Assembly: GCF_964355755.1 (NCBI RefSeq)
Contig: NC_092670.1
Span: 16,615,201-16,679,200, forward strand
Reading direction: 5' to 3'
Source: Antedon mediterranea
Taxonomy: Eukaryota; Echinodermata; Crinoidea; Comatulida; Antedonidae
DNA length: 64,000 nucleotides
Shown: positions 20,248 through 64,000 of the stretch, in pieces
Position numbering within the stretch: position 1 is the first letter of the stretch
Layout: each line of letters opens with the position of its first letter
Notes under the pieces: model-generated
The model's database searches: none
What the model was told of the DNA's origin: nothing
The model's input: only the letters and a program-made list of their open reading frames with translations
Program-made: the position numbers and the translations under genes

Positions 20248-21062
20248 TGTGTTAAGTTGTACTTACAACTATTAAACCAATGTATCTTCCAAGATAATTT
20301 AGGCTAATCCGGCCTAGGCTAGGTACGTACAGTAGGTAGGCCTATTCCTACTTTGAATTAATTTGGTTCTTTTTTAGTAAAAAATGGCAACTCCCATTCT
20401 TTTGAATTCCACTTCTGATGGCCTAAAAGCACAGCCTTATTCTATTTATAATAAATTATACGTAATTCAACAATTACCACATACTGATAGTTAGATACTC
20501 TTGAAGTTGAAATAAAAAAGACTGATCTAATGTCTCGATTTTAATGTCTCGATTTCAATTCCCCCTACTATCCACACGACACACAGCTCAATGTATCCCG
20601 CGTACAGTTTTTCATTTCGCAAAACACAGAACGCCCAAAATATTTTGCCTAAATTTCTCGTTTTACGACGATCACAATACAAAATTATAAGTGATATTTA
20701 CTAATAAACAAATTATAAAAATGTGAAACACCTCATGTCAAATCTTAATGACTAAATACGTATAATAAAGTTGAAATACTTCAGGAGTTTATTCACAAAA
20801 CAGCAAAAACTTCTTTTCAATGGCCGACTGATTGACCTTTTAATTGACCCTTCTCAAGAAAAAAAAATAACAACAAATAAATCAACAAAAGAGGGCGCTA
20901 TCAAAAATAGTAAGAAGGATCAAAACAGTGTTGTATGTGTAGGATAGAAGGAGGAAAGAATTTGATTGATTGAGAGGTAGACTTACCCCTTTATTTTACA
21001 TAATATTGGTCTATTCATAATCTATTGTGATTAAAAATTAATTGTAATATTTGTTTTCAGAT
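20248..21062. promoter_or_regulatory. Head-to-head spacer between RAB40 and MLST8
   Basis: 815 bp separate the two start codons, which point away from each other. A splice acceptor (ttgttttcag) lies just before the MLST8 start, so MLST8 must have a 5' non-coding exon in this spacer, possibly around 20820-20930. TAGGCCTA-type words sit at 20300-20345 next to RAB40. A shared two-way promoter is an inference from the layout. Confidence 0.5.
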
Positions 21063-28131: not shown

Positions 28132-31100
28132 TTAACCTAACCCAACATCTAAGGTCATCATAACAACAAACCCAAAAATAGAACCCCATGAGGCGAGACG
28201 TCCATTACCACTGAAAGAAAGAATTAAAAAAAATTAATCAAATATTTGTGAAAGGTAAAATTTGTCTGATGAAATCTCTTACATTCTATAACAAATTCTG
28301 GATTTGGTGTGGTTACAAATGCTATCACAACACTAATCTCAACTAATGGTTGTATACTTACGCTGAATGAGCCTCGGGCATTATATCATCCATGACAACA
28401 TACACCATGGCACCAGCAGCAAAGGACAGAGCATATGGAAGCACAGGTTCGGCAATGACTACGGCCAAAGCGCCCAGCACTCCAGCTATAGGTTCAACCA
28501 TTCCACTTAGCTGTCCATACCTACATATTATTACAGAAAATACAAAAGTACAGTGTAATACTCTGTGCTAGTAAATACATGACATTGTCATTCTAACGAA
28601 TGAGTGGAGTTATGTATTCTAAATACAATTAACAATTAAGATTATCATACAGTAAACTTTCCTAATACTGGATTTTAAAAAAAAATCCAATTTTAATGAC
28701 TATTTCAATCAAACTACATTATTATACTGTACAAAATATTGTACAATACTACACTGTACAAATACAGAATATTTTGTCATGTATTGTTACATGTAGAATT
28801 CATTTTTAGTATTAATGTCTGAAAAATAAGGCAAACAAAAACACATTTACCAAAAGCTCCTCCATATTGAAAATCCTGATGCTCGTAGTGGAAGACTAAC
28901 AGCAAGGCCTTCTGGGAAGTTTTGGATACCAATACCGATTGCTAAGTTCCTACGAACCAGAATAATAAAACAGGTAAGGTATAATTAATGATCAGCCAGC
29001 ATTTGGGTAAGATCTTCATACTCAATGTGTAAAAAAAAGACAGATTTTAATACCCCATGTGTAACAAATTGTCCGCTTAATAGAAGTTTCCCCTGAATAG
29101 TGGTTTCCCAAAGGAGAGGTTCTTAATAAACTTACCTTGCACTTTCAAAAGTTGCTGAGGGTGTTTTTCCTATGGCACCAAATCCAACACCTACTGCCAG
29201 ACCCTCTATCAAAACAAATTACATACACATTAATTCATTGTTATTAAGGAGTTACTGTACTAATAGTAAAGAATTACTATGAACAACTTTTTGTGGCATA
29301 AAAACCACTTTTAGTCGCATAAATATAATCATTATCACATTTTTGTTATTTTCTAATATTTTTTGTCATTACAATTTGATAAACTTCAACAGTGGCATAA
29401 CATTTTATCGTTTATGTCTGTGAATGCTCGACGACACATTCAAATCAAACTCAATATACACTTTTTAAAGAATTTTACCTGGAATATTATGAATAGTTAT
29501 TGCTAAAATCAAAAGTAGTATTCGTTTCCATTGATGACTTTTATTTTGTGTTGTGTTAACTTTAGTTGATGATTGGTCTATGGTATCATCTGCTGTCATC
29601 TTCTTTCTTCTTTGTGTTACAGACCCATTATCTGACATTCCTATCATTTTAACAAAACATAATAAATAAAAATAGAATAGAAGGGGGTACCTCTAGGACC
29701 TAATGAAATGTCTCCTTAATATGGGTGTATCTTGAATGGGAATGGTAGTAGTGTTAAAACATATATTTCCTCTTCTTATATAAATAAATAAATGTTCTCT
29801 GTTGAATAAGAGTGTCCAAAAAACGGGTGGGTGGGATTTTTTACTATATGATTGTCAAATACATTGTGTTCCTCTTCCATAATATTTTTAATCACCAACA
29901 TATATACTTTAAAATTTGGCACAGTTTTTAAGTAACATCAGAGATAAAGTATGGCCTACCTATTACAGTTGACGGTTGTTCTTCATCATATTGGTTATAT
30001 ATATCTTCATTTCTTGAATGTTCTTTTTGTTCACTGTTAAATACTACTGCTAAGTTTGACGAGGTAACACCCTAAAAATAGGTAAATTCATTTATGTTTA
30101 TTCTACACTTTTTTGACATCATTGGATCATTTTGTTTTAAACTATTATAATTTGGGATTGCATTTACATAACACTGTACTACCACAATACATGTTGTACG
30201 ACTGTACATTGCACTCACTAACTTACAGATGAAATAGAATTGAAATATATATATTACTGGGTAACATCTTCAGTCAAAGACTGGTCTTCCAGAGGGCCCA
30301 GTTGGTGATCAATGGCAGTGATGTACTAGTACACCGGGGTAACCCCCTACTCATCCCGAAAGATTTACTAGGTTCTTTAAAGTGCACACGAGCTAGATGG
30401 GTACACTGGACCTACGGTTTATAGTCCATATCCGAGAATACTCGTTCTACCACCAGAACCATGGAGTGAGTGAGCCTCGAACCCCTGCCGATGTTATGGC
30501 TACAAAATTACGGTTTCACTGCCTTAACCGCTCAACCACTCACTCGGTATAATAACTGACTAATGATTTCTGTTGTATAATCTATAATCAAATTGATTTT
30601 ATCAACATACAGTATGTGCATTAGGGTGGTGGGATGAGAGTAAACAAATTCATTCATATTGTGTAATTTATTAACAAAACCCAAATACTGTATACTGTAC
30701 AGACATGATTAATGAAATCTATAAAAAAGAAGAAAGAAAGAAAGAAAGAAAAGGAGAAGAAGAAAAGAAAAAGAAGAAGAAGGAGGAAAGAAAAAGGAGA
30801 AGGAAAGGAAAGGAAAAGAGGGAAATAAAAGGAGGAAAGGAAAAGAAAAGACAGAAAATGAGAAGGAAAGAAAAGAATAAGGAAAGAAAAGGAGGAAAGA
30901 AAAGGAGAAGACAGAAAAAAAATAAAATGAGAAGACAGAAAGAAAAGCAAAACAAGGAAATAGATTTCAACCTCAATTACAACAGTGGTGTGATTTAATA
31001 AAAATTATTACCAAATAAGGCATGAGTATATCAGCTGCATACACAAATGCAGCTCCAATTGTAAAGCCAACAGCAGCTGGAATAAACGACCATTCTCCTT

Positions 31101-33751
31101 CTTGTCCATATGTACCTGATAGTGTCGCTAGCTCAATGGCTGGGGCTAGCAGCGACCAATAAGAAGCAGCGAGCATAACCTTTAAAAAAACATAATATTT
31201 TAAATTGAGAAATTCAAAACTACATTATTATAACTTAAATCATAATGTATTGATGTGTATAGATCTTTATACATTTTATAATCATTCAGAATACATTTAA
31301 ACTTATAAACTACATTAAAGATGCACAGTCGGTGACATACTTGTTTATATTAAAGCATATTAATCCCTCTTTTTTTCTTTACCATGCCACCTAAATTGTT
31401 TTAGATCTATTTAACTAGGGCAGGAGGCGCCTGATGATTGACTGAGGTACAACTGGTGTTGACCGGGGTTCAATTAGACCGATCTCTGGTTAGCGACGAA
31501 GGCGTATCCCCTTACTGTATTTTGGTTTGGGGTTTTTTTTGGCATGGTTGGAATCCCTTTTATAGTATTAGTTTATGTACTTAGAGGTTTCACAACATTA
31601 GGCACTATATTATTAAAGATAGTGGGGTTGTGTTTCGAATAGCAACAATATACTGTATTTAAATATATAAAAACATACCCCAGCTGCAAATCCTAAACTG
31701 CCATCTAATACTTTTCTCTGTAAAATAAATTATATTATAAACAGTATAATATTGTCTTATTTTGATGATTTAAATAGAAATATTTCAACCTGTGTGCGCA
31801 ATTTCACTTGTTAGCTCAGAGCCATACAAAGTATATATAAATAGTTACGACATTGGGTTAAAGAGTCATGTGATACACAGATCAAATTAAAAAAAAATTG
31901 TCTCTATTTAAATGCATGTAAAGTATAGGAGCAACAAAATACTTTTATTTATTCGAATAAACAACCTGCTTTGAATTAAAGCCCAAATATATTTATTTAT
32001 TTACTTGAATAAACGCTCCGCAACATGCATTATCTATCATTTATATTGGCTCTGCTTGGTCCTCCAGAGCCATATATATAAAGAGTTACGACATTGAAAA
32101 TTAGAAGCCATTTTTGTGTCAAAAAATTCGCACGCTGAGGGCGCGCGCGTCTATTTTGTATAGCGTTTTCCTGTAGTTCATGCATTATTTTTAGATTTTT
32201 TTGTCTATGAAATAATGCTTATATTCCGTTTTTATTTTAGTAATTAATTTTATTAATGGTATTAATTTGGTAACATATATATATTGTGTCTATAATAACA
32301 AAAGAATAAATGCTAGGGCCTACATGCAAGTCAGGATACATCAAAGCATGAACCAATACAAATTCACCCCTCTTTTTATACAGTATATGCTCTCCGTGTG
32401 TTTTTGACACAAACTTTCAGAGACTCGTTCATTATTTCATTTGTAATAATTTGCCTTTATTATTTTAATATTGTTCATACCCTATTCAATATATTAACAA
32501 ATTATATCCACAACACTTTATTATCACGCTGCTGCTCTAGCCCGCTACGTCACACGAGATGACTCATTCATTAGATGAAATCAAGCAGCTTTATAGTACT
32601 ACACTTTGACATTTTTGTTAAAATGGAAACTCCACTATAATTTATTGGTACCACCTGTTGAATCCAAAAACGGCTGAGAAAAGAGTCTAACGACAAATCC
32701 CAAAACATTCTGGTATTTATGAGTCCCATGATATAATTCGCTGTCAGATAATCATTGAATTATTATCAAAACAGTCCATTGAAGTTTTTGTTTGTAATAG
32801 GATACTTGAAGTATCTAGGCGTGATGAAGTGACCCCCAGACTTGACCTTAGCAATAACAATAAGCGAGCAGCGTTTTTTGTAAGAAATATTCTTGTTTTT
32901 ATTTAGTCATCAAAGCATGCATTATGAATTGAAAATATTACATAATTGTTATTAATAGGACGTACTGTAGTTATGGGATGTTTCGTTACAAAATCAATTA
33001 ATCAAACTTTATAATATACTAGCGCACGCGCGCGCAATATTCTTTGCCGCAAGTACTTCTGTATGCTGTGCACATCGATATTTCACCGTAAAATGTGCAA
33101 TTACATTTTTTTAAATATAGTATTTTCTTGCTCCTATCTATACTTTACATGAATTAACGGAGACAAGTTTGACACAAATTGATCTGCATATCACGTGACT
33201 ATAATCCAATTGTCGTATTCGATTGGGAACTTTCGTTGTCAACGTAAAGATTCGTTGAGTACTTTTTGTATTCGAATTGTAAATTTGTGCTCAACAGAAA
33301 GTCATTCGAATAGAAAACGTTGACAATGAAAGCTTTTTCGTTAAGAACAATCTCAACGCTCAAAATACTCCGTTAAAGAAGTACTCAACGGAAAAACTGT
33401 ACTCAACGGTGAAAGTCTAAATCGAATACGACAAATGTCGTAACTCTTTATATATATGGCTCTGGGTCCTCTTACCTACACCGCCCTCTATATATTACTA
33501 GTGTAGGCCCATATAGGCTAGCTAGAGTGTATTGTTATCCTGACAAAATATCTAGACTAGCCTACTACTCTAGGCCTACTACTAGCCTACTAACTTAGGC
33601 CTTAGGGCCTAGATTTTATATATTTAACCTTATTAATACTTGCCTTCCCACTTGCGAATACAAAAACTAATGCAGAGCCTAATGCTGTTAGACCCCATGT
33701 AAACAGAGTACCAAACAGGGCTTGGTAAACTGGATCATATCCTTCTATCAT
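28132..33751 (-). CDS. SLC39A11: Zinc transporter ZIP11 (SLC39A11), nine exons, complete
   Basis: A multi-pass ZIP transporter that moves zinc into the cytosol; the family member is known from Golgi and nuclear membranes. CDS exons: 33644-33751, 31679-31717, 31012-31179, 29960-30071, 29479-29640, 29136-29205, 28851-28949, 28362-28520, 28132-28210; total 331 aa (human about 335-342). It starts [40 protein letters not shown] spans the exon 2-3 junction. The metal-site motifs are HNIPEGLAVG (193-202) and [10 protein letters not shown] (229-238), with [11 protein letters not shown] and [11 protein letters not shown] further on. A hydrophilic loop (106-180) corresponds to the poorly conserved loop of the family. 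Intron 1 has a GC donor (AAG|gcaagt), needed to keep the frame. The start codon is 447 bp from that of LUC7L, pointing the other way. Large TIR and polypurine repeats fill introns 1 and 3. Confidence 0.97.
30275..30545 (-). mobile_element. tRNA-Leu-headed SINE, family 1, second copy
   Basis: The minus-strand A-box region (TGGTTGAGCGGTTAAGGC, 30521-30538) and B-box (GGGGTTCGAGGC, about 30474-30485) lie in the same order as in the copy at 19.3-19.55 kb. The body again shows aaccgtaggtccagtgta and cgtgtgcactttaaagaacc. It lies in SLC39A11 intron 3. Confidence 0.75.
30721..30960. repeat. 240-bp polypurine (GAAA/GGAA) tract
   Basis: The plus strand is almost pure A/G, a degenerate mixture of gaaa, ggaa and gaag words with only a few T and C, in SLC39A11 intron 3. 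Reading frames across it on either strand are low-complexity artefacts. Confidence 0.9.
31818..31935 (-). mobile_element. Partial copy of the agagccat TIR element
   Basis: gagccata (31820), then gttacgacattg and ctttacatg-type words, match the complement of the right end of the element at 32064-33465. It is a truncated second copy lying just outside it. Confidence 0.6.
32064..33465. mobile_element. 1.4-kb element with perfect 32-bp TIRs
   Basis: The left end 32064-32095 (starting ccagagccatatatataaag) is a perfect inverted copy of 33434-33465. A gtcct direct repeat flanks both sides and may be the target-site duplication. There is no coding frame of note. It occupies much of SLC39A11 intron 1. 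Confidence 0.85.
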
Positions 33752-34198
33752 GATTTTGTTTTGGAGGCGATCTGTACACAAATCATCTGATTGAACGTGT
33801 GAACAAAAAGATCCACGTTTTGCGAATTGTCATGCTTCAATGCGTCGCACGTACACGTAACGTGCGACGATGACGTTACTTATTAAATTTCATTTAGTAA
33901 ATAGATAGCACATCATGTATCTTTATTTTAATTTATTTAAACATTTATTTACCTACTTTATATTTGGTTTTTGTGGAAAACGTAATTTATTTTTCCTGTA
34001 AAAGGCAACTTAATTGGGTTAAAAATACTTCTTATTTCTGGCAAAATATTTCCCACAATGCATTTTAGCTGGCCATTTTTTTTAAGGTTTCGTCTTTCGC
34101 GTGAAAAACGTTTTCATCCAGTCCTAGATTTTAACTTATTTAAATGTATGGTTTTTAAAGTTTATAATTATAATTTTGTATAAACATACATTGTAAAG
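33752..34198. promoter_or_regulatory. Head-to-head promoter between SLC39A11 and LUC7L
   Basis: 447 bp separate the divergent start codons. They contain a perfect 10-bp inverted repeat CGTCGCACGT/ACGTGCGACG (33843-33869, 7-bp spacer), an adjacent CRE-like TGACGTTA (33871-33878), ttcccacaatgca (34050-34062), which resembles a ZNF143/Staf site, and GCCATTTT (YY1-like, near 34072). Transcription-factor assignments are inferences from consensus words. Confidence 0.6.
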
Positions 34199-37100
34199 AT
34201 GTCTGCGCAAGAGCAGATGCGGAAAATGCTGGATGAGCTTATGGGAACGTCGAGAAACGGTGAGTATTTGTAGCCTACTTTTTTTGGTCGGAAAAACCTG
34301 AAACAAAAGATAACATGGCCTAGGCCCTAGGCTTGCTAGCTATGCCAAGGCTAGCATGTCGGGGACGTGGTCTTGGCTGAAGTAGGCCTAGCCTAGCCCA
34401 TATCTAGGCCTAAGTTTTTAACAGTAATATTTTTATATTTTTTCACCCATTTTCAGGTGAGGTTGGTAGAGACAGAGTAAGATTTGAAGATTCAAAAGTA
34501 TGTCGTTCCTTTTTACTGAACTGTTGCCCGCACGATATATTGTCAAGTACAGTAAGTATTCATCTGTTATGCACGATTTGCGCAATTTCAAATTGCGCAA
34601 AGAATTCTTGCGCAATTTCAAATTGCGCAAGGATTTTTTTGCGCAATTTCAAATTGCGCAATCAACTTGCGCAATTTCAAATTGCGCCCTCAGTCGACAA
34701 TTGTATGAACCACACCGTTTTTCGCTAAAATAATTACATATAATTACGTTTTATAGTAATTTATTTTATATATCAACATTGGAAATATCAATAAAATATA
34801 TTATTAAATGTTTACAAAATATATAAAGTTGTTTATTTAACGGAATTCGTACAAATTCATTGCTCTAAATTTGTGTAGTAACATCAGTACAGACAGACCA
34901 TGTGACTTCGCGGTACACGCGAGAGAAAACATTCCGCTGTGGGTGATTCGCGTCCACCAATCAAATAGCCAGAATCCAAAATCATTCAACCGTGAGCTCT
35001 GCCGATCGCGGGAAATCTCAGCTTTGATTGGATTACGATGACATCATATCACAAAATGGTGGTTTTGTAGTTGAGCCTCACGTAATTTTCACAATTTTAT
35101 TTCAAAAATGAAATAAATAGACCTTCTTTATGGTATGTCTGATTTTTCTCTAAAAGATTTGAATAATAAAGGCTTCATATCGAGAAAAAACCGTTTTTTT
35201 GGCACTTATAATAAATATTTCTCAGAGAAAAAAGCACATGGCATGTAGAACTATATAGGAAGACAAACAAATCTCAGGTCATGAGAGGCTCAACTACAAA
35301 AACAAGGTTGAATAGGGTAAGGTCACTGGACCGTTTGAAGGTTTTTGAGTAAACAATCTACCGCGTATGGTCGTACGCGCTAGACAGTACGATATTTTAA
35401 CCACATTTTTTACATGTTTGGTTGAATGTAATGAAGATAAAAAATAGTTGATCTTATGGAATGATATGTAAATAAATAAATACTCAAAAGAATTATGTTT
35501 ACAGTTCAATTATTTTCAGAATAATACTACATAAAAATGTGTTAACCAATGGACAAATAATCGCGTCAATGACATAGCGCGCATGGTAACGTACGCGGAG
35601 TTGAATCGTGGCAATAACAATGGAGTCAACTCTCGGTAACCCTATTAATACTCACTTTTTAAGTTTTTAATATTAGTTTAAGCTAGGCCATGTAACCTAG
35701 TCAGTATCAGTAGTCCAGACCCTAGCTAGGCTAGAGTAGTATAGCCGGCCGCCCGCGCCGCGCCCGCCTGGTGGAACACCACCGCTTCGTTTTCCTTCGT
35801 CGGTTCTTCGACGGTATGCTAACTTATAACAATATTTGCACTACTAAAATAAGGAAATGCGATATTTATCTTTAAATTTGAATCATTCTTAGAAATTACT
35901 ATAAAAATATAGGTGTGCATGATTTCACAATCTGTCGAAAAACCTTGCGCAATTTGCAGATTACTTGCGCAATTTAATACGTTGCTTGCGCAATTTGAAA
36001 CACATGTTTCAATTCAAATTGCGCAAGGATTTTTTTTGCGCAATTTCAAATTGCGCAAATCGTTCAAATCGCGCATAACACATCTATTTATTATTAGGAT
36101 ACAATACAGTCCATTTATCTACTTCTTCTTTCATTTATTAAGCTTTGTTTCATTAATATTTATGGTATAGAATAGGCCTTTATTCTTGTTTAATTCAAGA
36201 ATCATATGTATTAATTAACTGAAAAATTCAATTTTAATTTGTTTTTTTAGAGAATGGATCTTGGAGATTGTGCAAAGGTTCATGACCTGGCGCTGAGAGC
36301 TGACTACGAGGCTGCTTCCAAAGACAAAGACTATGGTTATGACATTGATGTATGTAATTGAAATTACTGATTTCAATCGTACTGTAATTGGTTTCTCCTA
36401 TAGCAAACGAACACTACTGTAACTATAAGATTGTACCAGCTGCTACCATATGCCTGTACCTGTAAATTTTATTTTAAAACTTAATGAAATGTAACATAAA
36501 TTTCATTTATCTTAAAACATATGTATTTACTTTTTAGGCTATGGAGCATCTGTCCTCATTCATTGCTGATTGTGATCGCAGAACAGAACTTGCCAAAAAA
36601 CGATTGGCTGAAACTCAAGAAGAACTTGGTCAAGAAATTAACTCTAAGGTAGGTTGTTGTGGTTTGATTTGATCATATCCGTCCAAACATGCGGAAATTC
36701 TTCACAAACTAAGCATACACAAGAAACACTACACAAAAGAATAGAAAATATTCTCACAAAATCTGACCCAAATTTACTTAAATACTACAAAATTATTACA
36801 GATTGAAATTACAATTCACAGACATGAAATTTTGGATACTGTTCATAGGTTTATGTAAAATTGGTAATTTGCCCAAAAAATAACTACAAACAAACTAATG
36901 GTAAACCAAAGGAATGTGTTTACTGTATAGTATTTTACACATATAGTAATGATAATACAAAGATTTATAACCAATGTGCATGTTATGACTATTTAGTGTG
37001 TTTCATCAAATCCTATGTGTGAATACAAGCGAGTCAAATACACCAATGACAAAACTCTTAATTCTCCCATCATTCTTTCTCAGATAAGCCAACAGCCAAT

Positions 37101-40100
37101 GAGAGACCGCCGTTAAGTTTTAGTGGGAGGCAGATTTTGTAAGTCATATCATTCCCCAAAATGTCCAAATTATAAATGTCTTGTTAAGCCCACCAGGACT
37201 TAAATCCACGATAGCTTAAACAATATTGTTATTTGTATGTTATCACTTAAAATCACATGTTTCTAACAAACTATTTTTCCCTCAGGTTTTATGAAATTAC
37301 TATTATACTGTGAGAAGCTATTTATTTTTATTTTACTATATATACTTTAATTAACATAATATTATTATACAGACAAAATATATAAGACAAAATCGGCACG
37401 TTCACCAACATTTAATTTCCTATTAGTTATAAAATCAGAAATCATAGTATATTTAATAAATATTTGAACCAAGAAGTTTATACTATAACTTAATTCAATT
37501 AGTTTTGTTTTAATGAAAGAAAAATATATATTACTTATTGTCTCATCAATTACTGTAGGTAATTTGTGCTTCCAAATATCACAACATATTACCTATTTTT
37601 TAAATATAGTACTTAAAACTAAATTAAATTTGTGTTATGACAACACACACATTAGTTGCGAAAGATTGTGAGTATCTTGGCAACATAAATTGTTTACGTT
37701 TTACGATGTAAAAGAAGTCTCAAATCATCAAGCGTGATATTTGGGGTGTCTTGTGTGAGTTTATACAGATGTGATACATGTTTTGGTAAGTTATATCATC
37801 CGTGATGTTTCTGTAGACGAGTCTAAAAATCGATGGTTATGATGGGTTCATGTGTGAGTGTGTGAATATGTATGCTTGCTGCACAGCAAATCTGGAGAAT
37901 ATAGTCTGTAGTGAAATTGTTCCAAATGTGTTATCTAATGTGTAGAAAGCAAGACTTTAGCTAGTAGTCTTGGGGTTAGTGTCTATATGTATGCAATTTA
38001 TATTAAAGAAATGTATTGGTATGTATGCGAAATATATATGTTTCTGTTGGTATAATAAATATATTAACTGTAATCGATTGTTTTGTATTATCTTCTATAG
38101 GCTGATAAGGTACATGAACTTGCCGAGAGCATTGGTAAAAAAGTGACGGAGGCAGAGAAGTTAGGAGCGGAAGGAAAAGTAGAGGAATCAATGAAAGTAA
38201 TGCAAGAGATTGAAGAAATTAGAAAGAAGAAAGGTGAAGCTGAGGTTAGTAGAAGTAATTCTAAAGCTCTGTCTACACTATCAAACTTTATGTGACAAAA
38301 AAAATTGATGTGCCCAAATATGGTAGTGATATGTCATTGTGTTCACATTTTTTTTGTCACAGAGTTTGATAGTGTAGACAGAGCTTTAGTTAGTAATAAT
38401 ATCCCAGAGTTCCAAAATGCCTAGTGTTGTGAAACCTCTAAGCGATATACATACTGTATAGTATATTATAATTGTAATTAATAGGTAATAGGTGGATACC
38501 GTATCTGTCAGGAATCGTATGTCCAAATTTGCACATGTTTAAATGCTTTAGCCCGAAGTTATTTGTGATTTTGTTGAACGCTTCGCATTGTAGTGATAGG
38601 CTTCGAGGTTAGATTGCAGAGGCCTAACACATTAATATCTATAGATATTGTGTCGCATTATGCTGGTAACGGAGAATAATACTTAAAAAGTGCGACTGCG
38701 TCATCTGCCGTTAAGTTGGTTGAATATAACTTTATTTCATCCATCATTCCATAAAAATAACCATCATCGCTGTCAAGATGCCCAGTTCCAAAAGCTCCGA
38801 TTGTAACACCACTGCCCCTGCCAAGGCTATCCAAATCAGCACAACACATGCTATTGGCCAGTACCCCATTTATATAGACAGTTGATGTTTTTCCACCAAA
38901 TGTGAAAACAACATGGATCCATTCATTAAAGCGAAAATCGTCAATGGTTAATTCAGGTGGAGGTCCAAAAACAGAAATTCGAAACCCATTTTTGCTTCTT
39001 CTTTTCATCTCCCAAGTGCCGGAATCCTGGAATCCATTACTAATAAATCCAATCCTTTCAGTGGTAGATGGGACACAATTTAAAAGTAAACTGAATGAAA
39101 ATTCAGACCCAAAGTTGTATGTTTCAAACTTTTCCATGTACAGTCTTGAGTTTCCGTTAAATTGTACTGCTTTTCCCTGTAGTCCTTGAGTGTATGTTAC
39201 TGCTGAACCAACGACAGCGCCATCATAACCATTACCAGATACATCATTTAAATTGTCTTCAAATGAATAATGTGCCAATAGATTCGAATTCAGTGCATCA
39301 AGGGTGGTCAGTGGCTGTGTGGTGGTCAGTGGCTGTGTGGTGGTCACTTGCTGGGTGGTGGTCACTTGCTGTGTGGTGGTCACTTGCTGGGTGGTGGTCA
39401 CTTGCTGTGTGGTGGTCACTTGCTGGGTCGTAGACAAAGAAATAGTTTTAATGTCAAGGGTGGTCATTTTTTTTTGGTGGGTCACTTGCTGGGTTGTAAA
39501 CAAAGAAGTAGTTTTAACATCAAGAGTGGTCACTTGCTCTGAGGTGGTCAACAAATGAGTGGTTTCAATATCAAGGGTGGTCACTTGCTGTGGGGTGGTC
39601 ACTCGCTGTGGGGTGGTCACTCGCTGTGGGGTGGTCACTCGGTGGCTAACATGATGTAACTTTAAGCTATTCATCTTGTCATCTTTTCCTGTGTCGTTGG
39701 CTGAAACTGCTGAATATCTGAAACATTTCTTTTGAATTATAGAAACACAGCTATATCTTCCAAATATATTTACTAATTTTGTATTTTCGTTGCAATTGTG
39801 CCCACATGCGAACAATATCATTGCTGACATCACAACAGTGAATAGTTCATATTCTATGACAAAGATAAAAATAAATTTACAATTTGAAATATTAACAAAT
39901 AAAGTAATAAAAATTATATTTGTTAATGTAATTATAATTCTAACTGTAAAACACAAGATTTGAAGAGCCCTGACTAATTTTGCAAACTTATCTACAGTAA
40001 GCCTGTACTTACCATGCATCATATCAAATGTTGTTAATGTATCTTACTCAGTAGTAATAACATAGCCAATGTTTCTCTAGTCTGCTCTTAGAACCAAACT

Positions 40101-42919
40101 GTTTGTACTGTATATAATGTTGTTATTTAAAACCTACAGTGACCAGTCATTACAGTCATTAGTTACCATCTTTTGTTGCCAAATTTATCATTTGAATATA
40201 ATTATTAACAATAGCTCTGCCTTAATTCATGACTCTGAGTATCTCTGACAGAATCAGAACAATAGTGCTTTTAAGTTTCAGCTTGAATCAGTTGCTGTTT
40301 ACTCTCTCAATATCCTCAAATTTAATTACAGTATTGAAATATATTTTGCTTTTTGTATTAAAAAAAAATTAACTTCATTAAACAAATATATAATTAAATG
40401 TAATTTGTATTTTGTAGTTATTTCTCATTAGTGTGTTTCAATTGTTGATATTTTCATAAGAAATATTTGATTATTCATCATCAATCCAAAAGCAAATTAC
40501 TGAAAAAATGGCATCAGTGCCTGGATCTCAACGGAAATACAAATAAAATAAGCAAAGCGAAAAAGTAAAACAGCTAAAAGGATGTACCAAGCTACAATAG
40601 CGCTGTACACAATACGTAGGGTGATTTAATGTGTAAATAGATGTAACTACAGTAATATGTACTGTACTATTAATCTACGCTATAAATTTGACTTAATTAA
40701 ATAGACGATTCCTTGCTACCACCAACTTCAAATTGAATTGGAATACAGTCGGATTCCTATGTAAGAGCCATGCTTTTTCTATTTCTTCTTCTCATTTGTG
40801 TTTGATCAGTTTAATACTAGAGTCTTATAATTGTTGTATATGTAATGCACCTACAGTACCCCTTCATCTATGAGGCATTTTATTGGATACGGGTGTTACT
40901 ACAGTATAAATATAAATTTATATTAGACATTACATTAGAAAAACCATCTAAAAACATCTAAATTAAATTATTTCTCATACATATATTTCCTATCCTGAAT
41001 CTACATTTTAAATACATAACATAATGCGATTACATTAAAGAGTAATACAATTCCCTGTAAGTTTTTCTATAACAATTTAAACACAAACATTCAGATTTTG
41101 TTTAAACGTGATGAGTAATTTGTGCTGGATGGAGCATTGCTTATTATATAACACCTATATAAATTCCTGTCATTTGATTGGACGAATGTGGGTCACATGG
41201 CGTGCAATAGTACGCACTATTCAACGATCGTTAAATAGTACTTTTTGAAACATTTTTGTGTACGAAAAAAAAACGTCTAGATGTTATATAAAACAAATAA
41301 TGAATGTTTTGTATTCGTGTAATGGTACAAATAATGGCACTTGGTGAATGATGAAAGGTTATATCAACTCGGCTTTGCCTCGTTGATATAACCTTTCATC
41401 ATTCACCTCGTGCCATTATTTGTACCATTGCACTCATAAACATTCATTATTTGTATAATAGTATACAAAGCATTGTATCCCCTAGAGATACACTGAATAT
41501 TAATCTAATGTATCTTAAATTAAAACTACACTAATATGAACTACTGTACAATCATGCTGTGCTCCAGATATTGGAGTTTTTTGTCGCGCTGTATTTAAAT
41601 TTCATTTTAAACAGCATAGTCTTACCATAGAATTACTTACTAAAATCAAGTACTGTATGATGTGCTGCAGATATTGTGTTTGGTTGTTTTTTGTCACACT
41701 GTATTTAAATTTCATTTTAAACAGCATAGTCTTACCATAGAATTACTTACTAAAATCACGTACTGTATGATGTGCTGCATATATTGTGTTCGGTTGTTTT
41801 TTGTCATACTGTATTTAAATTTTAAACATACTGCCATAATGCAGCTTGTAATCCACACAAATTTACACCTAAATTGTTTGGAAAGAAGCATTTGATTCAA
41901 TCTTACGATCAAAATGTCCAGCACACTGCGCCCATATGCAAGATTTTACTCATTTATCCTGTTAATTATTAAAATAAAGTAACATTGTATACTGTTATTG
42001 TTAACAGGAAGAGTACCGTCAGTCGATGCCAGCCTCTACGTACCAGCAGCAGAAGCTTAGAGTGTGTGAAGTATGTTCAGCCTACTTAGGCCTACAAGAT
42101 AATGATAGACGTCTTGCAGACCACTTTGGTGGCAAGCTACATCTGGGCTTTATTGAGATCCGTGAAAAACTTGCAGCTTTAAAAGTAAGTTAAAACAATT
42201 GCAATCATAAGAAATATAAACATTCTACTGTAATGCTTGTTAACATTTGAGAATATTATGTCATTTTTTAACAATATTTTTGTGTTTTATCTAGAAACTT
42301 GTTGCTGCAAAGAAAGAATCGCGAGAAGCCGAAAGAGCCAAACGACGAGAAGAGCGTGAAAAGGAGAGAGAAAAAGACTTACAACGTAGGAAGAGAAGGT
42401 ATGTATGAAGTGAAGGGTTTACTTTTTAGCAATTTAAAAAAAACAGAAAGAAAATATATATATTAGGGAATAGAAAGTAGTAAAGAATTTAAATAGTTTG
42501 GCAATGTCCACATGACTTTTATTCACCAATAAGAAATTTTAAGTAAGATCTCCTAGACTTAGTGCAATGTACATATTTTTATTTTCAGGACAAGATCTCG
42601 TTCCCGTGAACGTAGAAGATCACGCTCAAGAGAAGACAGCAGGCAAAAGTCTCGCGATCGCCGCCGATCTCGTTCCCGGGAACGTCGTCGCCGGTCTCGT
42701 TCCCGTGATCGGGAAAGGCGTAGACGCTCCAGATCACGAGATAGATCTAGCCGCAGACGATCACGATCAAGAAGTTCTGAAAAAAGAAAGTCAAGGTCTC
42801 GTGATAGAAGTTCCCGTGATCGCAGTTCTCGCGACCGTAAATCTAATGAGAAAAGTAGCCGGCAGTCACATGATAGTGATGATAGAAATGGAGACAGAAG
42901 GAGTGCAAGTGTAGATTGA
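34199..42919 (+). CDS. LUC7L: LUC7-like U1 snRNP splicing factor, eight exons, complete
   Basis: A nuclear protein that binds U1 snRNP and helps select 5' splice sites. CDS exons: 34199-34259, 34457-34551, 36251-36349, 36538-36648, 38101-38244, 42008-42184, 42295-42398, 42589-42919; total 373 aa (human LUC7L 371). Starts MSAQEQMRKMLDELMGT. The first zinc-finger region uses C36, C44, C59 and H63; coiled-coil helices follow (86-170). The second finger has C190-x2-C193 and H209/H215 within LRVCEVCSAYLGLQD and RRLADHFGGKLHLGF. The C-terminus (264-373) is an Arg/Ser-rich (RS) domain. It fits LUC7L/LUC7L2 rather than LUC7L3. Intron 2 is mostly one palindrome-rich element, and intron 5 (3.8 kb) contains an antisense gene. 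The other frames of the RS exon are shadows. A globin gene follows on the same strand. Confidence 0.97.
34561..36088. mobile_element. Element with clustered TTGCGCAA palindromes filling LUC7L intron 2
   Basis: Starting 9 bp after the exon 2 end, four copies of the palindrome arm TTGCGCAATTT / AAATTGCGCAA follow each other (34578-34687). A similar cluster in inverted order lies at 35945-36075. The outermost words tgttatgcacgattt and its complement (aatcgcgcataaca) are inverted at the two ends, as expected of a TIR element of about 1.5 kb. It has no transposase-like frame. A GC-rich patch lies at 35740-35775. Confidence 0.65.
38262..38389. mobile_element. Foldback MITE family A, full copy in LUC7L intron 5
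   Basis: Complete arms taaagctctgtctacactat and gatagtgtagacagagcttta enclose a shortened core. It lies 17 bp downstream of exon 5. Confidence 0.9.
38658..40022 (-). CDS. Nested gene: secreted Thr-rich LamG-like protein, antisense in LUC7L intron 5
   Basis: I do not recognise a named orthologue. The genomic frame is open for 454 codons, but a strong donor (CATG|gtaagt at 40012) and an acceptor (tcatag|AATATG at 39853) suggest exons 40013-40022 and 38658-39853, which give 401 aa. The spliced product starts MMHEYELFTVVMSAMILFAC, a plausible signal peptide. A Thr/Gln/Pro-rich stretch follows (about 75-190), with repeated TTTQQV and TTPQRV units, typical of O-glycosylated linkers. The C-terminal 207 residues (195-401) look like a LamG/concanavalin-type jellyroll: LLAHYSFEDNLNDVSGNGYD, WIHVVFTFGG, VYINGVLANS and MMDEIKLYSTNLTADDAVAL. 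It is likely secreted and carbohydrate- or matrix-binding. The reading frame is intact and the domain is at the proper end, so a gene is likely. The first exon is the least certain part. Confidence 0.78.
   Translation of the reverse strand: MMHGKYRLTVDKFAKLVRALQILCFTVRIIITLTNIIFITLFVNISNCKFIFIFVIEYELFTVVMSAMILFACGHNCNENTKLVNIFGRYSCVSIIQKKCFRYSAVSANDTGKDDKMNSLKLHHVSHRVTTPQRVTTPQRVTTPQQVTTLDIETTHLLTTSEQVTTLDVKTTSLFTTQQVTHQKKMTTLDIKTISLSTTQQVTTTQQVTTTQQVTTTQQVTTTQQVTTTQPLTTTQPLTTLDALNSNLLAHYSFEDNLNDVSGNGYDGAVVGSAVTYTQGLQGKAVQFNGNSRLYMEKFETYNFGSEFSFSLLLNCVPSTTERIGFISNGFQDSGTWEMKRRSKNGFRISVFGPPPELTIDDFRFNEWIHVVFTFGGKTSTVYINGVLANSMCCADLDSLGRGSGVTIGAFGTGHLDSDDGYFYGMMDEIKLYSTNLTADDAVALFKYYSPLPA
39302..39440 (-). 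repeat. 18-bp coding minisatellite (TTTQQV)
   Basis: On the plus strand the unit is gtggtggtcacttgctgt. It encodes TTTQQV-type repeats in the LamG gene. A related TTPQRV array lies at 39580-39645. Length variation between individuals is likely. Confidence 0.85.
41292..41455. repeat. Long imperfect hairpin in LUC7L intron 5
   Basis: Two arms of about 75 bp are inverted around tcggctttgcctc (centre about 41375). The inner 29 bp, including gatgaaaggttatatcaac, are nearly perfect. Outer parts share acaaataatgaatg and tggtacaaataatggcac. It may be a foldback MITE. Confidence 0.8.
41555..41830 (+). repeat. 119-bp tandem repeat, about 2.3 copies
   Basis: The block catagtcttaccatagaatt, followed by acttactaaaatca-gtactgtatgatgtgctgca and ttgttttttgtca-actgtatt, occurs twice in full with a partial third. 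It lies in LUC7L intron 5, ahead of exon 6. Confidence 0.85.
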
Positions 42920-43668
42920 TATTTGTAATATTTTAATCATAATTTTTAATTCATATGAAGTCTTTATACATGTTTTTTTGCAGCGTTAAATTATAAATGT
43001 AATGCATTTATATTCATTTCATTGATTAAATCAATGAACAGAACAAAATAAGAATTAATTGGGAATATGTTGTTAAAATTTAAACTGTAGAATTTTATGT
43101 GAATAATGGTAAATTAAACTACTGGAAATTAATTTTCATGCTTAAAATCTTTGGCCACACACAGTTCCCAGTTCTTAATATTATTTTTTATTGAATTTAA
43201 AAATACTGTATTTGTATGGAAATACTGTATGTAATTAAAAGTGACGCATCAGATAATGCTCAAATATCTGGGATTTTGTTATGGTTGTTCCTGTATAGTG
43301 GTTAACTGATGACGGTGTTAAACATATTTTCCCCCACATCCCTTTTAGGAAGGTGGCCCCTGTGAATGGGGTGGCCCCTCTGAATAGGTGGCCCAAGGGA
43401 GAAGACTGCCTCAAATTGCATTTTCGAATCCTGGTGACGACCATCAGTAATACATTTGAATTACATTGTTGAATATAGTAATAGTCTAAGTAAATCATTT
43501 TAAACTTGTCATATACACAGAAATTACGTTGCAAGCAAGTACAATAGTACACACAGGGCTTGCACAGGAGTTAAATACAGTAGTCTTGGTGTATTTAATT
43601 GTTATCGATTAATGAATTTCTGTTTTTCACATTAAATATTAAGTTAATGTATTGTATGTGTTTGTTTA

Positions 43669-43804
43669 TCGGTTCCCACTATGACACAACGCAAGGACGT
43701 AGACGCAACGCAAGCGAGTTGACCAATAACACGCGACAGTTCGAATAATCCATCGCTTGTGATTGGTCAAATCGCGTTGCGTCCTAGTGAAAAACCAAGC
43801 TTTA
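43669..43804. mobile_element. Foldback MITE family C copy
   Basis: Arms ggttcccactatgacacaac and gcgtcctagtgaaaaacc enclose gaccaataacacgcgacag and catcgcttgtgattggtcaa. The arms are diverged. Confidence 0.8.
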
Positions 43805-43921
43805 ACGATAATTGATACAGACTTCATATCCTATCATATACATATCTAAATGCGGCATTTATTCGCTGTATTGCAAGATAACATCATCAAGTATCTTTTC
43901 CTCCGTGGTATTATCTTCACA

Positions 43922-44100
43922 TAAGCGTGGTTCCCACTAGCGACACAACGCAAGGACGTAACGCAACGCAAGTGAATTGACCAATCACAAGCAAAGTTAT
44001 AGACAGTTAGTAATCACAAGCGAATAAGCCATCGCTTGTGATTGGTCAATTGCGTTGCGTTACGTCCTTGCGTTGCGTCGCTAATGGGAACCACGCTTAA
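43922..44100. mobile_element. Foldback MITE family C, best copy
   Basis: It starts taagcgtggttcccactagc and ends with the near-perfect inverted copy. The arms continue through acgcaaggacgtaacgcaac to gaattgaccaatcacaagc. Arm length is about 70 bp with a short centre. Confidence 0.88.
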
Positions 44101-44149
44101 CTACATGAACTTCAATTAAATACAAGGGATTGTGACGACACAGGTGGTT

Positions 44150-44424
44150 TTCCGTTAAACGCGTGATTCTTGGACGCGACGCAACTCAACGGCGTGCTGG
44201 CGAAAGTTTGGATGACCTATCGCGTCGTGATTGGGGGTCAAATTGCTAAAGCTTGATTCTAACTTTTTGGACGCAACGACGTGGGCGCAACGAAAGTTGA
44301 GTTGTCCAATCACAAGCACAGTTCGAATGGTCCATCGCGTACTAGTGTTGATTGGTCAAATGTAAGCTTTTGGCGCGTTTACGTCCTTGTGTTGCGTTCT
44401 CCACCAAGTGAAGACCAGGCTTAT
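44150..44424. mobile_element. Two diverged family C foldback MITEs, overlapping
   Basis: One partial copy (44150-44247, gacgcgacgcaactcaac) runs into a second (44247-44424) bounded by aaagcttgattctaac and gaagaccaggcttata. The usual core of opposed gtccaatcacaagc and tgattggtcaaat is kept. Confidence 0.65.
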
Positions 44425-45265
44425 AAACGCGACCTATATATTAATGAAAGCCATAGACCTCCACAAATAAATTGGAATATATTAATCAGAATTTATTATA
44501 TGGATTCTTCATTAACGTTTAGAATTATCTCATGTAATATACAACTTCTTCGTTTACATTATCATGTTTCAATTCTCATATCACACGCCCCCTATTCAAT
44601 TACATAAGTATTCTGCAGAAAAAAAACTGGCGTACCGTTTTACGGTGAGGTGAGGACCTGCACTTTGCTCCCAAACATTTCAAACATCGTTCGTTTAAAG
44701 GTTGTCGACAAAAATATCGTGGCGGTGGCTATAAACAAAGAGTAAATAAAGATTAGAAATCACTTTGTTGGCATCTTCTGAGGTATGCATAGTAATACTT
44801 GAGCTATCATCCAGTGTACATAACTCAACTATATTTCAGCAGGTTGTTAATTTTTGTTGCAACTTATATTTTGCATAATTGCTTTGGAATATTTGCGTAC
44901 AAAAGTACAAGTAAGTATATTTTAATATCATATTATAATTAATTAGATTATATTTATCAAAACAAAGTTAGTCTATACTATGTGTTATACTGAATTGTTA
45001 CTATATATTATAAATTCTTGTTAATATTTTATCCGACTGTACAAGCATGGTCATTTAGTATAGGTGGGGGTGGGGGTGTACGGGGTTGGTCCCATCCCCT
45101 CAACTGTTTGAATAAATTTTAAATACAATTGATGCCTCTCAATTAATATAGATACTGTAGCGGATTTGTCCACCTTTTATTTCAAGGCTGATAAATACAA
45201 AGTTATCACACTTATCCTATATAAGACTAATTAAATTAGTATTATTTTCTGTATGACCATATTGC

Positions 45266-45380
45266 TTTGTTTCCATTAGGACGCAACCAATCACAAGCGA
45301 TGGATTATCCGAAATTTTCGCTTGTCATTTAGTGGGTCAGTTAGCTTGCGTTTGCGCTTTCGACCTTGCGTTGCGTCCTA
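45266..45380. mobile_element. Foldback MITE family C, shortened copy
   Basis: The arms ttccattaggacgcaacc and ttgcgttgcgtcctaaagc are inverted. It directly abuts the next copy. Confidence 0.7.
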
Positions 45381-45565
45381 AAGCGTGGTTCCCACTAGCG
45401 ACGCAACACAATGACGTAACGCAACGCAAGTGAATTGACCAATCACACGCGATGGCTTATTCGCTTGTGATTGCTAACTGTCTATAACTTCGCTTGTCAT
45501 TGGTTAAAACGCTTGCGTTGCGTTTACGTCCTTGCATTACGTTCTAGTGGAAACCAAGCTTTAAT
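45379..45565. mobile_element. Foldback MITE family C, full copy
   Basis: aaagcgtggttcccactagc on the left and ttctagtggaaaccaagctt on the right. The centre contains opposed gaccaatcacacgcgatgg and tcgcttgtcattggttaaa. Confidence 0.82.
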
Positions 45566-45688
45566 GAGAACCAAGATTAAATATACACACAGGTGGCTAA
45601 CGCGCATTTCCGAAAAAGAAAAATATGTAGGGCCTCTATTATGTTTTATCAGAGTTTGTATGTGCGTGAAAAGTATCGTAACTCATTA

Positions 45689-45957
45689 TGAGGGCCCCTT
45701 GACTGTTAGCATACGCTGTTTAGGGTCACCATCTATAAGGGTTCAAGCCTCACTCGCTCCTCAGTGGCTCTGGTGGTAGAATTAGTCTTCTTGGAAAAGG
45801 ACTATAAACCGTAGGTCCAGTTCTGACTCATGTGCACCTAGTACATCTTCCGAGACGAGTAGGGGGTTATCCCGGCGTACTAGTATACACACTGTCACTC
45901 ATCATGAGGGCCCATTGATTGTCAGCATGCGCTATTTAAGGTCACCCTCTATAAATA
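45689..45957 (+). mobile_element. SINE family 1, head-truncated, flanked by a 45-bp duplication
   Basis: The plus strand has the B-box gggttcaagcc (45739-45749), then the family body actataaaccgtaggtccag, gtgcacctagtacatcttcc and gagtagggggttatcccgg. The A-box head is gone. About 50 bp (atgagggcccc-ttga-tgt, ggtcacc-tctataa) occur on both sides (45689-45737 and 45906-45957), so the insert sits in a duplicated older repeat. Confidence 0.65.
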
Positions 45958-46749
45958 AGGTGTAATACAAAATAAAATAAGATTAAATAAATAAAGAAAC
46001 TAAAAATGGTCAAAAACTGTCACTGAGGGATTTCCATAATTGTGAAGCTATATAGACAATTAGTAAGTTCATGTAATGCACATAATTTGTTAATGACAAT
46101 AACAATTATGGGGTCACTATTAGTGGCTGTGACATTTGTGGCATTTGTTTGTTCAAATTTGGTTTGTCATAATAAGGTTAACTGTTGAAATATTAAATCA
46201 CATTGCGTCAACATTTAAAAACCATATGCATTATCATTGTTTTTAATTAGTGGTATTACTATAAGTATCATCGTATATAGGTCGGTATTGTTTGAAATGT
46301 GTGTCTGATCTGCTTAACAAAAAGATGATTAGTGTTGAGTAGATATTGCAAGTGTATTGCCTCGAAGCTCAACATAATGCAATTATAGGTCTACTGAATT
46401 GTAGGCCTACAATGACTATATATTTCTATAAAAGACATGCGGCCTACTCAACAAATCATTTAAGCTATATATCTGTCTGTATAGATGTAGTATCCTGTAG
46501 TAATTGTATAAAATCATACACGTGCCAGACTAAAACCAGAAGAAAAAAAACAAAGTGATCTTTGACCAATTTGGAAATCTATCCTGATACGTGAATAGTG
46601 TTATACTGTACCATTATTGTTCTTACAGAATACTACAAAGTTATCTCCGTTCAATTTGGCACGTACGGTGAAATTTTATTATTTATTATTGACATAAAGT
46701 TGATTACGCGGTTTTATTGAAGTCTATAATTGTTTTGTTTAATATTAGG

Positions 46750-49246
46750 ATGGGAGGTGAACAATCGTACTTAGGTAAACTGTGGTCTGCTATTCGTTGG
46801 TTTACCGGATGGGAAGGTGAGTACGTACCTGGATGTGCTATCGTACCTTTTTATTTATTTATTGTTTGCAGGAATAATACATGTTCGACAATCGCTTTTA
46901 TTTGATAGATTAACTCGATGAGGGTGCTGGAAATATAATACGATTTTAATTATAAAGTAGAACCTACTCTTATTAACAGACAGATTCTGGACCCAATAAG
47001 TGTCGCTTTAATAGAAGTGACCCGGCTGAATAATTGTTAGCCTTCGTTAACATATGATCTGTATTGCCTCTTGGTACGGTCATTTCACGAAAACGTGTTT
47101 CTGTCCCAATAAATAACGTCCAATAATGTCCAAAGGGATGGGTTCAACCCACTATATGAATATGTACACGTTCACACTCGCTTTTAGAGGAGTTCAGAGG
47201 CGTTGGTTGAACATGTTTCTTTCATAACTTAAAATGCTATTATAATGCAATTGCTCTTTAAACAGATCACGTCGGATTGAGCATGCCAACTTGTAACGTA
47301 CAGCAACGTATACTAATATAGGTTCCGAGACTTGCCAACATTCACAAAATTGAAAACTAAATTTCTTCACATTTTATCACCAATTTATTTGTAACAGATG
47401 ACCAGGAAAGGGACGTGATTGGCTTGACATCCCGGCAACGAAAATCAATTCGACAAATGTGGACGGAAATTAACAAGGATAAAATTAACGTCGGAATTGG
47501 AATTTTTGTGAAGTATGCTCAACTTATTTATTCAATCACTTTAGTCTACTGGGACTCGACATAACGATAGTATATTCGTTATTAATGTTTTCGAACAATT
47601 TATTTTCTAGTTTATTTAATATTCTCAACATGTGAGTTCAACGTCGGTAATTATGTGCAGTCTGCTCACAGGCAATGTCTGTTGTCTATTAATCGACATT
47701 ATAAGTCCCTATGTATATGAATTCCACTTTGATATTTAAAATCAGTTATGTTACACAATCGCAAATAAAAAGGCCATACGGTGAAATTGGTAAAAACATG
47801 ACAAATAAAAATAAATACTGTTATAGTTAGAAAGATTTTAACTTGTTAATGCTCTTGGTCAAGGACCAGGATTAAACGCATCTTTGTCAACCACAAACAC
47901 AGAGAGACTGCTATACATGAATAATTGGCATCTTGACTTGCGATCACAATCGCAATAAATAATTTTATTAATTTTAGAATAACATTAAACTTTGTTCACT
48001 TAATATTAAAAACATTCATATTCTCAGCTTGTTCTTCAAATCTTTAGAACAAGGTAAGCAAAGTCTACATTCAATAGACCTCAAGATTATCTTAAGAAGT
48101 TCTTAAATTTTGGCTTTTTTGGTTCTATAGGTTATTTACCGAATACCCGGAAGCACGGCAACTATTTCCAGCCCTTCGCAAACTAACATTTGATGAAAAC
48201 TTTGGAAAAAGTCCAAAACTGAAAGCACATTCAGGTCGATTTATGGGGTTATTATCAACTTGTGTGGAAAATATTGAAGATCCTGAAGTATTCGAACAGC
48301 TATTAGTAGGCTTAGCAGCATCACACTTCAAACTTAAAGTTGAAACAAGTCATTTTAAGGTAAAATATACATTTTGGGGATCGTGCAGGTGAGCGAGGGG
48401 GCGGGGCATCTTTGTTGTTAACTATCGCTGACATTAATTCATTAGAATGTTGCTATATCATCATCATTATACGTCATCAACATCCTGTTCGCTATCGCAG
48501 TTTTTTATGGCTCTCTTTGGTGATGTTCCTAAAAAAACAATAACTATCGGATGTATTGCACATAGTGCTACCATGTCTCTAGATATTTGAAATACTTTTT
48601 GGAGAGTAAATCATTCTTATAATAAAGTACAAAAAAAAATGTGTTGTGGCCATATCACATTTGGGCATTTCACTACCATATTTGGGCACATCACACTTTT
48701 TTTTTCAAACTAGTTTGATAGTGTAGACAGAGCTTTAGCTTATACGAATTAGAGTGACGTGTTATCCAATAAGGCTAGGCCTATGCTGTAGGTTTGAAGA
48801 GAACTCTCTCTTTCATGACCGTACAACGGAAGATGACATCCTAGAAGAGAATGATACCCGTCTGACTTACCTTGAAGATAAACATGTGGAGGCTAATGGA
48901 CAAGACAAACGAAAGATGTATCTTGTGGCACCTGTGAATCAGGTGTGAAATGCCCTTAACTCATGGTCATTGTGTATAGGCCTACAGAATGTTCCTCAGT
49001 GTGAACGCAGTTCATTATTCCTCTTTCCTGATATAGGTCTACTTTATATTTTCTGAATATTGTATTTCTAAATGTATTTTCTTTCAGGCTTTAGGTCCCA
49101 TTATGATCGAAACATTTTCAACACACCTTGGACGAGAATTTACATCAGAAAGAGGCGCAAGTTGGGATATATTTCAAGGATACATGTTTAAGATCATCAC
49201 TACAGAACTCCAATCAATTGGGGAGGAGCAGCACCACAGCGAGTGA
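46750..49246 (+). CDS. Globin, cytoglobin/globin-X-like, four exons, complete
   Basis: Haem-binding globin of 189 aa. CDS exons: 46750-46816, 47398-47512, 48131-48359, 49088-49246. Key residues: CD1 Phe73 (RQLFPAL), distal E7 His94 (LKAHSGRF) and proximal F8 His126 (LAASHFKLKV). E7-F8 spacing of 32 residues equals that of cytoglobin. Introns fall at the ancient globin positions B12.2 (within Lys61) and G7.0 (after Lys137); a third splits the N-terminal extension. The first residues MGGEQS fit the N-myristoylation pattern MGxxxS, so it may be membrane-bound, as known for some globin X proteins. It has a 22-residue extension before the A helix. Possible roles (oxygen sensing, NO or redox chemistry) cannot be told from sequence. 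The start is the first Met after an acceptor, which implies a 5' UTR exon. It lies 3.8 kb downstream of LUC7L on the same strand. Confidence 0.95.
48625..48737. mobile_element. Foldback MITE family A, left-truncated, in globin intron 3
   Basis: It contains cactaccatatttgggcac and the complete right arm gatagtgtagacagagcttt. It ends about 55 bp before a coding-like segment (48792-48942). Confidence 0.8.
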
Positions 49247-63822: not shown

Positions 63823-64000
63823 CTGCAACAGTAATAAGTATTATTAATTACTCAGTCAAGTGAATATATAATTTTCTTGTCTATTTTTCTATATTAACCT
63901 TGATATATATAACTTCTCTATATAATACTATATACACTCTCGTTTATAGGACAAATACAAACCATTAATTTACAATCTTAGAAAAAAAATTACAATAATG
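63823..64000. other. Formin intron at the window edge
   Basis: AT-rich sequence upstream of the FH1 exon acceptor (gttgcag at 63823-63829 on the minus strand). I see no exon; earlier formin exons lie beyond the window. Confidence 0.6.

Follow-up and report, generated by a model that had tools for sequence, protein, structure and literature searches.

A cytoglobin-lineage globin gene beside LUC7L in a crinoid suggests that the position of the vertebrate globin locus is older than vertebrates

The origin of the vertebrate globin clusters is an open question. In jawed vertebrates, the alpha-globin region has the gene order MPG-C16orf35-globins-LUC7L, and work on the platypus traced the LUC7L-globin arrangement back to jawed vertebrates (PMC2529266). 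In cartilaginous fishes the Hb cluster is flanked by Luc7l and Mb by Luc7l2 (PMC13023373), and turtle, chicken and coelacanth all retain the order LUC7L-GbE (PMC4524481). In amphioxus, the Hb/Mb/Cygb lineage was not seen at any conserved position, which led to the proposal that chromosomes had fused late (PMC2975663, PMC3087553); LUC7L is mentioned in neither of these papers. A literature search found the LUC7L-globin pair reported in no invertebrate. Does the vertebrate arrangement have an older source?

The DNA analyzed here (the window) is a stretch of 64,000 nucleotides on contig C1 of the crinoid Antedon mediterranea, and the 354-Mb genome (18 contigs) was examined with it. An earlier note on the window had described LUC7L and a globin gene as direct neighbors with only repeats between them, and had suggested that this linkage is older than vertebrates and that the globin may sit at the ancestral locus. 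The two genes and the stretch between them are as follows.

34199..42919, + strand: LUC7L/LUC7L2-type gene (splice model; Pfam LUC7, E=2.1e-82; LUC7L-type, not LUC7L3-type)
34199-34259, 34457-34551, 36251-36349, 36538-36648, + strand: LUC7L exons 1-4
38101-38244, 42008-42184, 42295-42398, 42589-42919, + strand: LUC7L exons 5-8
42920..46749, no strand: LUC7L-globin intergenic stretch, repeat-rich, no recognised gene
46750..46816, + strand: predicted globin exon 1, MGGEQSYLGKLWSAIRWFTGWE, N-myristoylation-like start, phase-1 junction
47398..47512, + strand: globin exon 2, helices A to B, ending at intron B12.2
48131..48359, + strand: globin exon 3, helices B to G, with Phe CD1, His E7 and His F8, ending at intron G7.0
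49088..49246, + strand: globin exon 4, helices G to H, stop

Both gene models are intact, and the genes are arranged in tandem on the + strand, 3,830 bp apart, which confirms that they are direct neighbors. The gap is rich in direct and inverted repeats, and the seven ORFs tested in it gave no Pfam match. There is no N in the window or in the 60 kb on either side, and the adjacency is therefore not a gap artefact. The chance that a globin on the same chromosome is the direct neighbor of LUC7L is about 2 in 2,000, estimated from gene density, and about 1% once roughly ten other notable vertebrate flanking genes are allowed for (also an estimate).

The splice model of LUC7L has eight exons with GT-AG at every junction and a coding sequence of 1,122 nt (373 aa). 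The protein matches Pfam LUC7 with 277 bits and is 70% identical to human LUC7L over 243 aa, as compared to 34% for LUC7L3. Its relative among solved structures is yeast LUC7. This is the only LUC7L/L2-type gene in the genome; the other LUC7 gene, at C1:20.98 Mb, belongs to the LUC7L3 type. LUC7L proteins are U1 snRNP splicing factors with housekeeping functions. Intron 2 carries repeated palindromic TTGCGCAATTTCAAATTGCGCAA units (34560-36070), and intron 5 contains an antisense stop-to-stop frame of 461 codons (38661-40043, − strand) that encodes a Laminin_G_3 domain and a repetitive segment rich in Thr.

The globin gene is complete (46750-49246), with four exons and an intact frame of 189 residues. 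Its Pfam Globin match has an E value of 2.7e-22, while a search of NCBIfam gave no match. Exon 2 lacks an in-frame ATG ahead of helix A, and an upstream exon is therefore required. Exon 1, which we infer from the sequence, is the sole ATG frame of at least 12 residues with a strong donor in the right phase across the 4.5 kb that separate LUC7L from exon 2. Mononucleotide shuffles of this stretch give a mean of 0.21 exon-1-like candidates, and in none of 300 shuffles does a candidate also fit the N-myristoylation pattern MGxxxS/T. The N-terminus encoded by exon 1, MGGEQS, is a predicted N-myristoylation signal. Intron B12.2 is in phase 2, at the residue aligned to the Arg of ILVR in CYGB, and intron G7.0 is in phase 0, after HFK. 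In the alignment, the protein has Phe CD1, His E7 and His F8, residue CD4 is Leu (numbering of sperm-whale Mb), and Lys and Ser are found at the columns of Cys B2 and Cys E9 of cytoglobin.

A search of the genome with PF00042 finds five globins, one on C1 (that in the window) and four on C10. The window globin is the only one of the five that is Cygb-type. In a search of the Protein Data Bank, its first match is human CYGB (85 bits, NGB 48), while two of the C10 globins prefer NGB over CYGB (70 versus 46 and 58 versus 35 bits); one of these two starts with MGC. The earlier note had proposed a globin tree. In a tree of 11 sequences, the window globin joins CYGB, Hb, Mb and lamprey Hb with a support of 100/99, apart from neuroglobin and the C10 globins. 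With long-branched sequences added (15 rows), the support for this clade is 86/91 and the fly globin falls inside it; placement of the window globin with NGB and the C10 globins is rejected (p = 0.004). These trees drew on vertebrate, soybean, Glycera and fly sequences and on a bacterial row copied from the Protein Data Bank search output. The CYGB domain used agrees with the CYGB alignment from that search, and GbX is represented by the MGC globin of C10 as a stand-in.

The tree and the search scores support assignment of the window globin, at the level of sequence, to the Cygb/Hb/Mb lineage. The earlier note had also raised the possibility that it is a recent lineage-specific duplicate, and this does not hold. 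Its closest relative in the genome has about 30% identity (E = 0.05), both canonical introns are retained, and it groups with Cygb/Hb/Mb. The genome contains no close paralogue of it, so that both recent duplication and retrocopying are ruled out as its source.

Two of the C10 genes have features of their own. The GbX/Ngb-like globin at C10:5.590 Mb has a long N-terminal extension beginning MGCLES, and it matches bacterial haemoglobin-like flavoprotein domains in the Protein Data Bank (79 bits) better than neuroglobin (70 bits). In the divergent globin at C10:13.0 Mb, the distal His E7 is replaced by Gln.

The window globin shares with cytoglobin, its best sequence match, the introns B12.2 and G7.0, the His E7/F8 pair and Phe CD1. 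There are differences, however, in the predicted N-myristoylation signal and the extra N-terminal exon of the crinoid protein. Moreover, the two disulfide cysteines of cytoglobin (B2 and E9) are absent, and for this reason the protein is filed under the cytoglobin lineage and not as cytoglobin. Predicted N-terminal acylation is common to the window globin and Globin X, which belongs to another lineage and in vertebrates has different introns and neighbors. The introns of vertebrate GbX are at E10.2 and H10.0 (PMC4524481). Both are absent here, as neither helix E in exon 3 nor helix H in exon 4 is interrupted, and the MGGEQS start has no Cys at position 3, unlike the MGC globin of C10. An N-terminal acylation motif alone is insufficient to define GbX. 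The Cygb lineage has been reported in echinoderms, a likeness drawn here by description only, and the genomic positions of those Cygb-like globins were not given (PMC4527676).

The other genes of the window are as follows.

11234..20262, − strand: RAB40-type GTPase (Pfam Ras, E=1.9e-26; RAB40 by reading)
20041-20262, 13212-13415, 12513-12773, 11253-11546, − strand: examples of RAB40-type exons, from ORFs
21048..23983, + strand: MLST8 (LST8), extent approximate (WD40; mLST8 by phmmer against the Protein Data Bank, 112.6 bits for one exon)
28361..33829, − strand: SLC39A11-type ZIP zinc transporter (Pfam Zip; SLC39A11 by reading)
54632..64000 and beyond the window, − strand: delphilin/GRID2IP-like formin (FH2, PDZ; delphilin by reading)

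The exons encoding the PDZ domain of the delphilin-like gene lie past the window, at about C1:16.692 Mb. Altogether, a region of about 140 kb holds SOCS (SH2 and SOCS box), threonine aldolase, RAB40, MLST8, SLC39A11, LUC7L, the globin and the delphilin-like formin. We take the human counterparts to be SOCS1, RAB40C, MLST8, LUC7L and HBA at 16p13, SOCS3, THA1P, RAB40B, SLC39A11 and CYGB at 17q24-25, and GRID2IP at 7p22. The prevailing view is that these three human regions descend by duplication from a single ancestral chromosome.

Three further 16p13.3 genes with a match in the genome are all on C1: PIGQ at 18.54 Mb (1.9 Mb from the globin), MPG at 22.12 Mb (5.5 Mb) and AXIN at 0.35 Mb (16 Mb). 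C1 makes up 11.7% of the genome, and the chance of this is 0.0016. The 16p13.3 gene order in general is not kept on C1, as these three genes are scattered. Searches of the genome for the NPRL3, RHBDF (iRhom) and RBFOX families gave no match, and such searches miss divergent exons. As a control, SRP14, which adjoins GbX in vertebrates and acorn worm, is located on C10 together with the GbX/Ngb-like globins, and the two globin chromosomes sort as expected. Both the gene block and the chromosome correspond to the vertebrate globin paralogon.

Compared to the vertebrate alpha-globin locus, the window has the same LUC7L directly beside a globin of the Cygb/Hb/Mb lineage, with the globin 3′ of it and with RAB40 and MLST8 nearby. 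On the other hand, the crinoid has a single globin and no alpha/beta cluster, MPG is not adjacent, and NPRL3 was not found in an insensitive search. The MARE-type enhancer motif YGCTGASTCAY does not occur in the window (0.11 expected), and no claim on globin regulation is made for this reason. The human globins are 3′ of LUC7L but point toward it, whereas the crinoid globin is in tandem with LUC7L and not convergent. The window resembles the vertebrate Mb/GbE locus in having one tissue-type globin beside a LUC7L-family gene; the vertebrate locus, however, is a post-duplication paralogue and its other flanking genes differ.

The window probably represents the ancestral locus of the Hb/Mb/Cygb/GbE/GbY globin lineage, kept in an invertebrate deuterostome. 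This reading builds on what is observed in the window and the genome (adjacency, gene structures, globin lineage, block content and same-chromosome linkage). Before vertebrates, one Cygb-type globin would have been located 3′ of a single LUC7L/L2 gene, in an ancestral chromosome block with RAB40, MLST8, SOCS, SLC39A11, MPG, PIGQ and AXIN. The vertebrate whole-genome duplications would then have copied this block to give Hb-LUC7L, Mb/GbE-LUC7L2 and Cygb, and the Cygb copy would later have lost LUC7L. Two duplicated vertebrate regions each pair a globin with a LUC7L-family gene, which implies that the pair is older than the duplications. The adjacency should thus predate the vertebrate genome duplications, with the crinoid window as outgroup evidence. 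The suggestions of age and of ancestral position made in the earlier note gain support from the paralogon gene content, the two vertebrate LUC7L-globin regions and the grouping of the globin with vertebrate Cygb/Hb/Mb. The adjacency was probably inherited and not formed anew, and in the simplest reading passive retention would suffice to keep the pair. The analysis found no regulatory tie between LUC7L and the globin, and the pair can be explained without one.

The globin and LUC7L could instead have met independently here and in vertebrates, by shuffling of gene order on the same ancestral chromosome. The scattering of MPG, PIGQ and AXIN over C1 indicates a fluid order, mobile repeats lie between the two genes, and their relative orientation is unlike that in human. 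We nevertheless consider such a meeting unlikely, since its chance is about 2 in 2,000 for each globin that shares the chromosome (an estimate), the globin lies 3′ of LUC7L just as the human globins do, and the two vertebrate paralogons already imply a pair before the duplications. Still less probable, and by a wide margin, is a GbX/Ngb-type or lineage-specific globin moved beside LUC7L by chance. It could account for the MG acylation motif at the N-terminus, which GbX is described as having, and the tree branches are long; however, the GbX/Ngb-like globins sit on C10 (one of them starting with MGC), the tree and the Protein Data Bank scores point to the Cygb lineage, and the gene has no close paralogue and has kept its introns.

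No globin was found in the amphioxus RHBDF1-MPG block (Wetten et al. PMC2975663; Ebner et al. PMC3087553), and Wetten et al. (2010) put forward chromosome fusions as the route by which globins reached it (PMC2975663), the chordate linkage groups joining after the amphioxus split. Consistent with this, the draft amphioxus genome has no globin placed on CLG15. That draft assembly is fragmentary, however, and Ebner et al. likewise found no support for fusion (PMC3087553). Here, a Cygb-type globin shares one chromosome with MPG, PIGQ, AXIN and LUC7L, which makes a late fusion highly improbable and argues that the globin was already on the MPG chromosome, with the amphioxus draft being fragmentary or the gene having moved in amphioxus.

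With inheritance of the pair as the preferred reading, an invertebrate Cygb-type globin beside LUC7L, on the chromosome of MPG, PIGQ and AXIN, gives the question of globin origin a concrete address, and the adjacency offers a position-based test of orthology for a family with weak sequence trees. Judging from the motif and the lineage, the gene probably encodes a haem globin that retains both residues of the His pair, is tethered to a membrane via N-myristoylation and carries out Cygb-like chemistry (NO, oxygen or redox). More tentatively, and with somewhat less than even confidence, the window globin could correspond one to one with a single globin older than all vertebrate Hb, Mb and Cygb. 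That globin would itself have been N-myristoylated and membrane-anchored beside LUC7L, with the respiratory globins having lost the anchor and kept the address.

The G+C content is about 33% (30-36% per 4-kb stretch), which does not fit amphioxus (about 41%), and a COX1 search for mitochondrial copies in the nuclear genome gave no match. In a cephalochordate, the adjacency would be no older than early chordates. Further along C1, at about 16.7235-16.7297 Mb, open frames of 1,343 and 394 codons consist of a tandem 33-residue unit, EHLEPTVPEQLMLAAAAGQVLPAAKQQNDACSS, which is probably a 99-bp satellite. Across many contigs of the genome, GT29 sialyltransferases form a very large set (150 exon-level matches above the cut-off), and arrays of them occur on C5, C7, C9 and C11. 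Such an expansion indirectly supports a deuterostome host, as this family is expanded in deuterostomes and absent or few in protostomes (PMC5000683).
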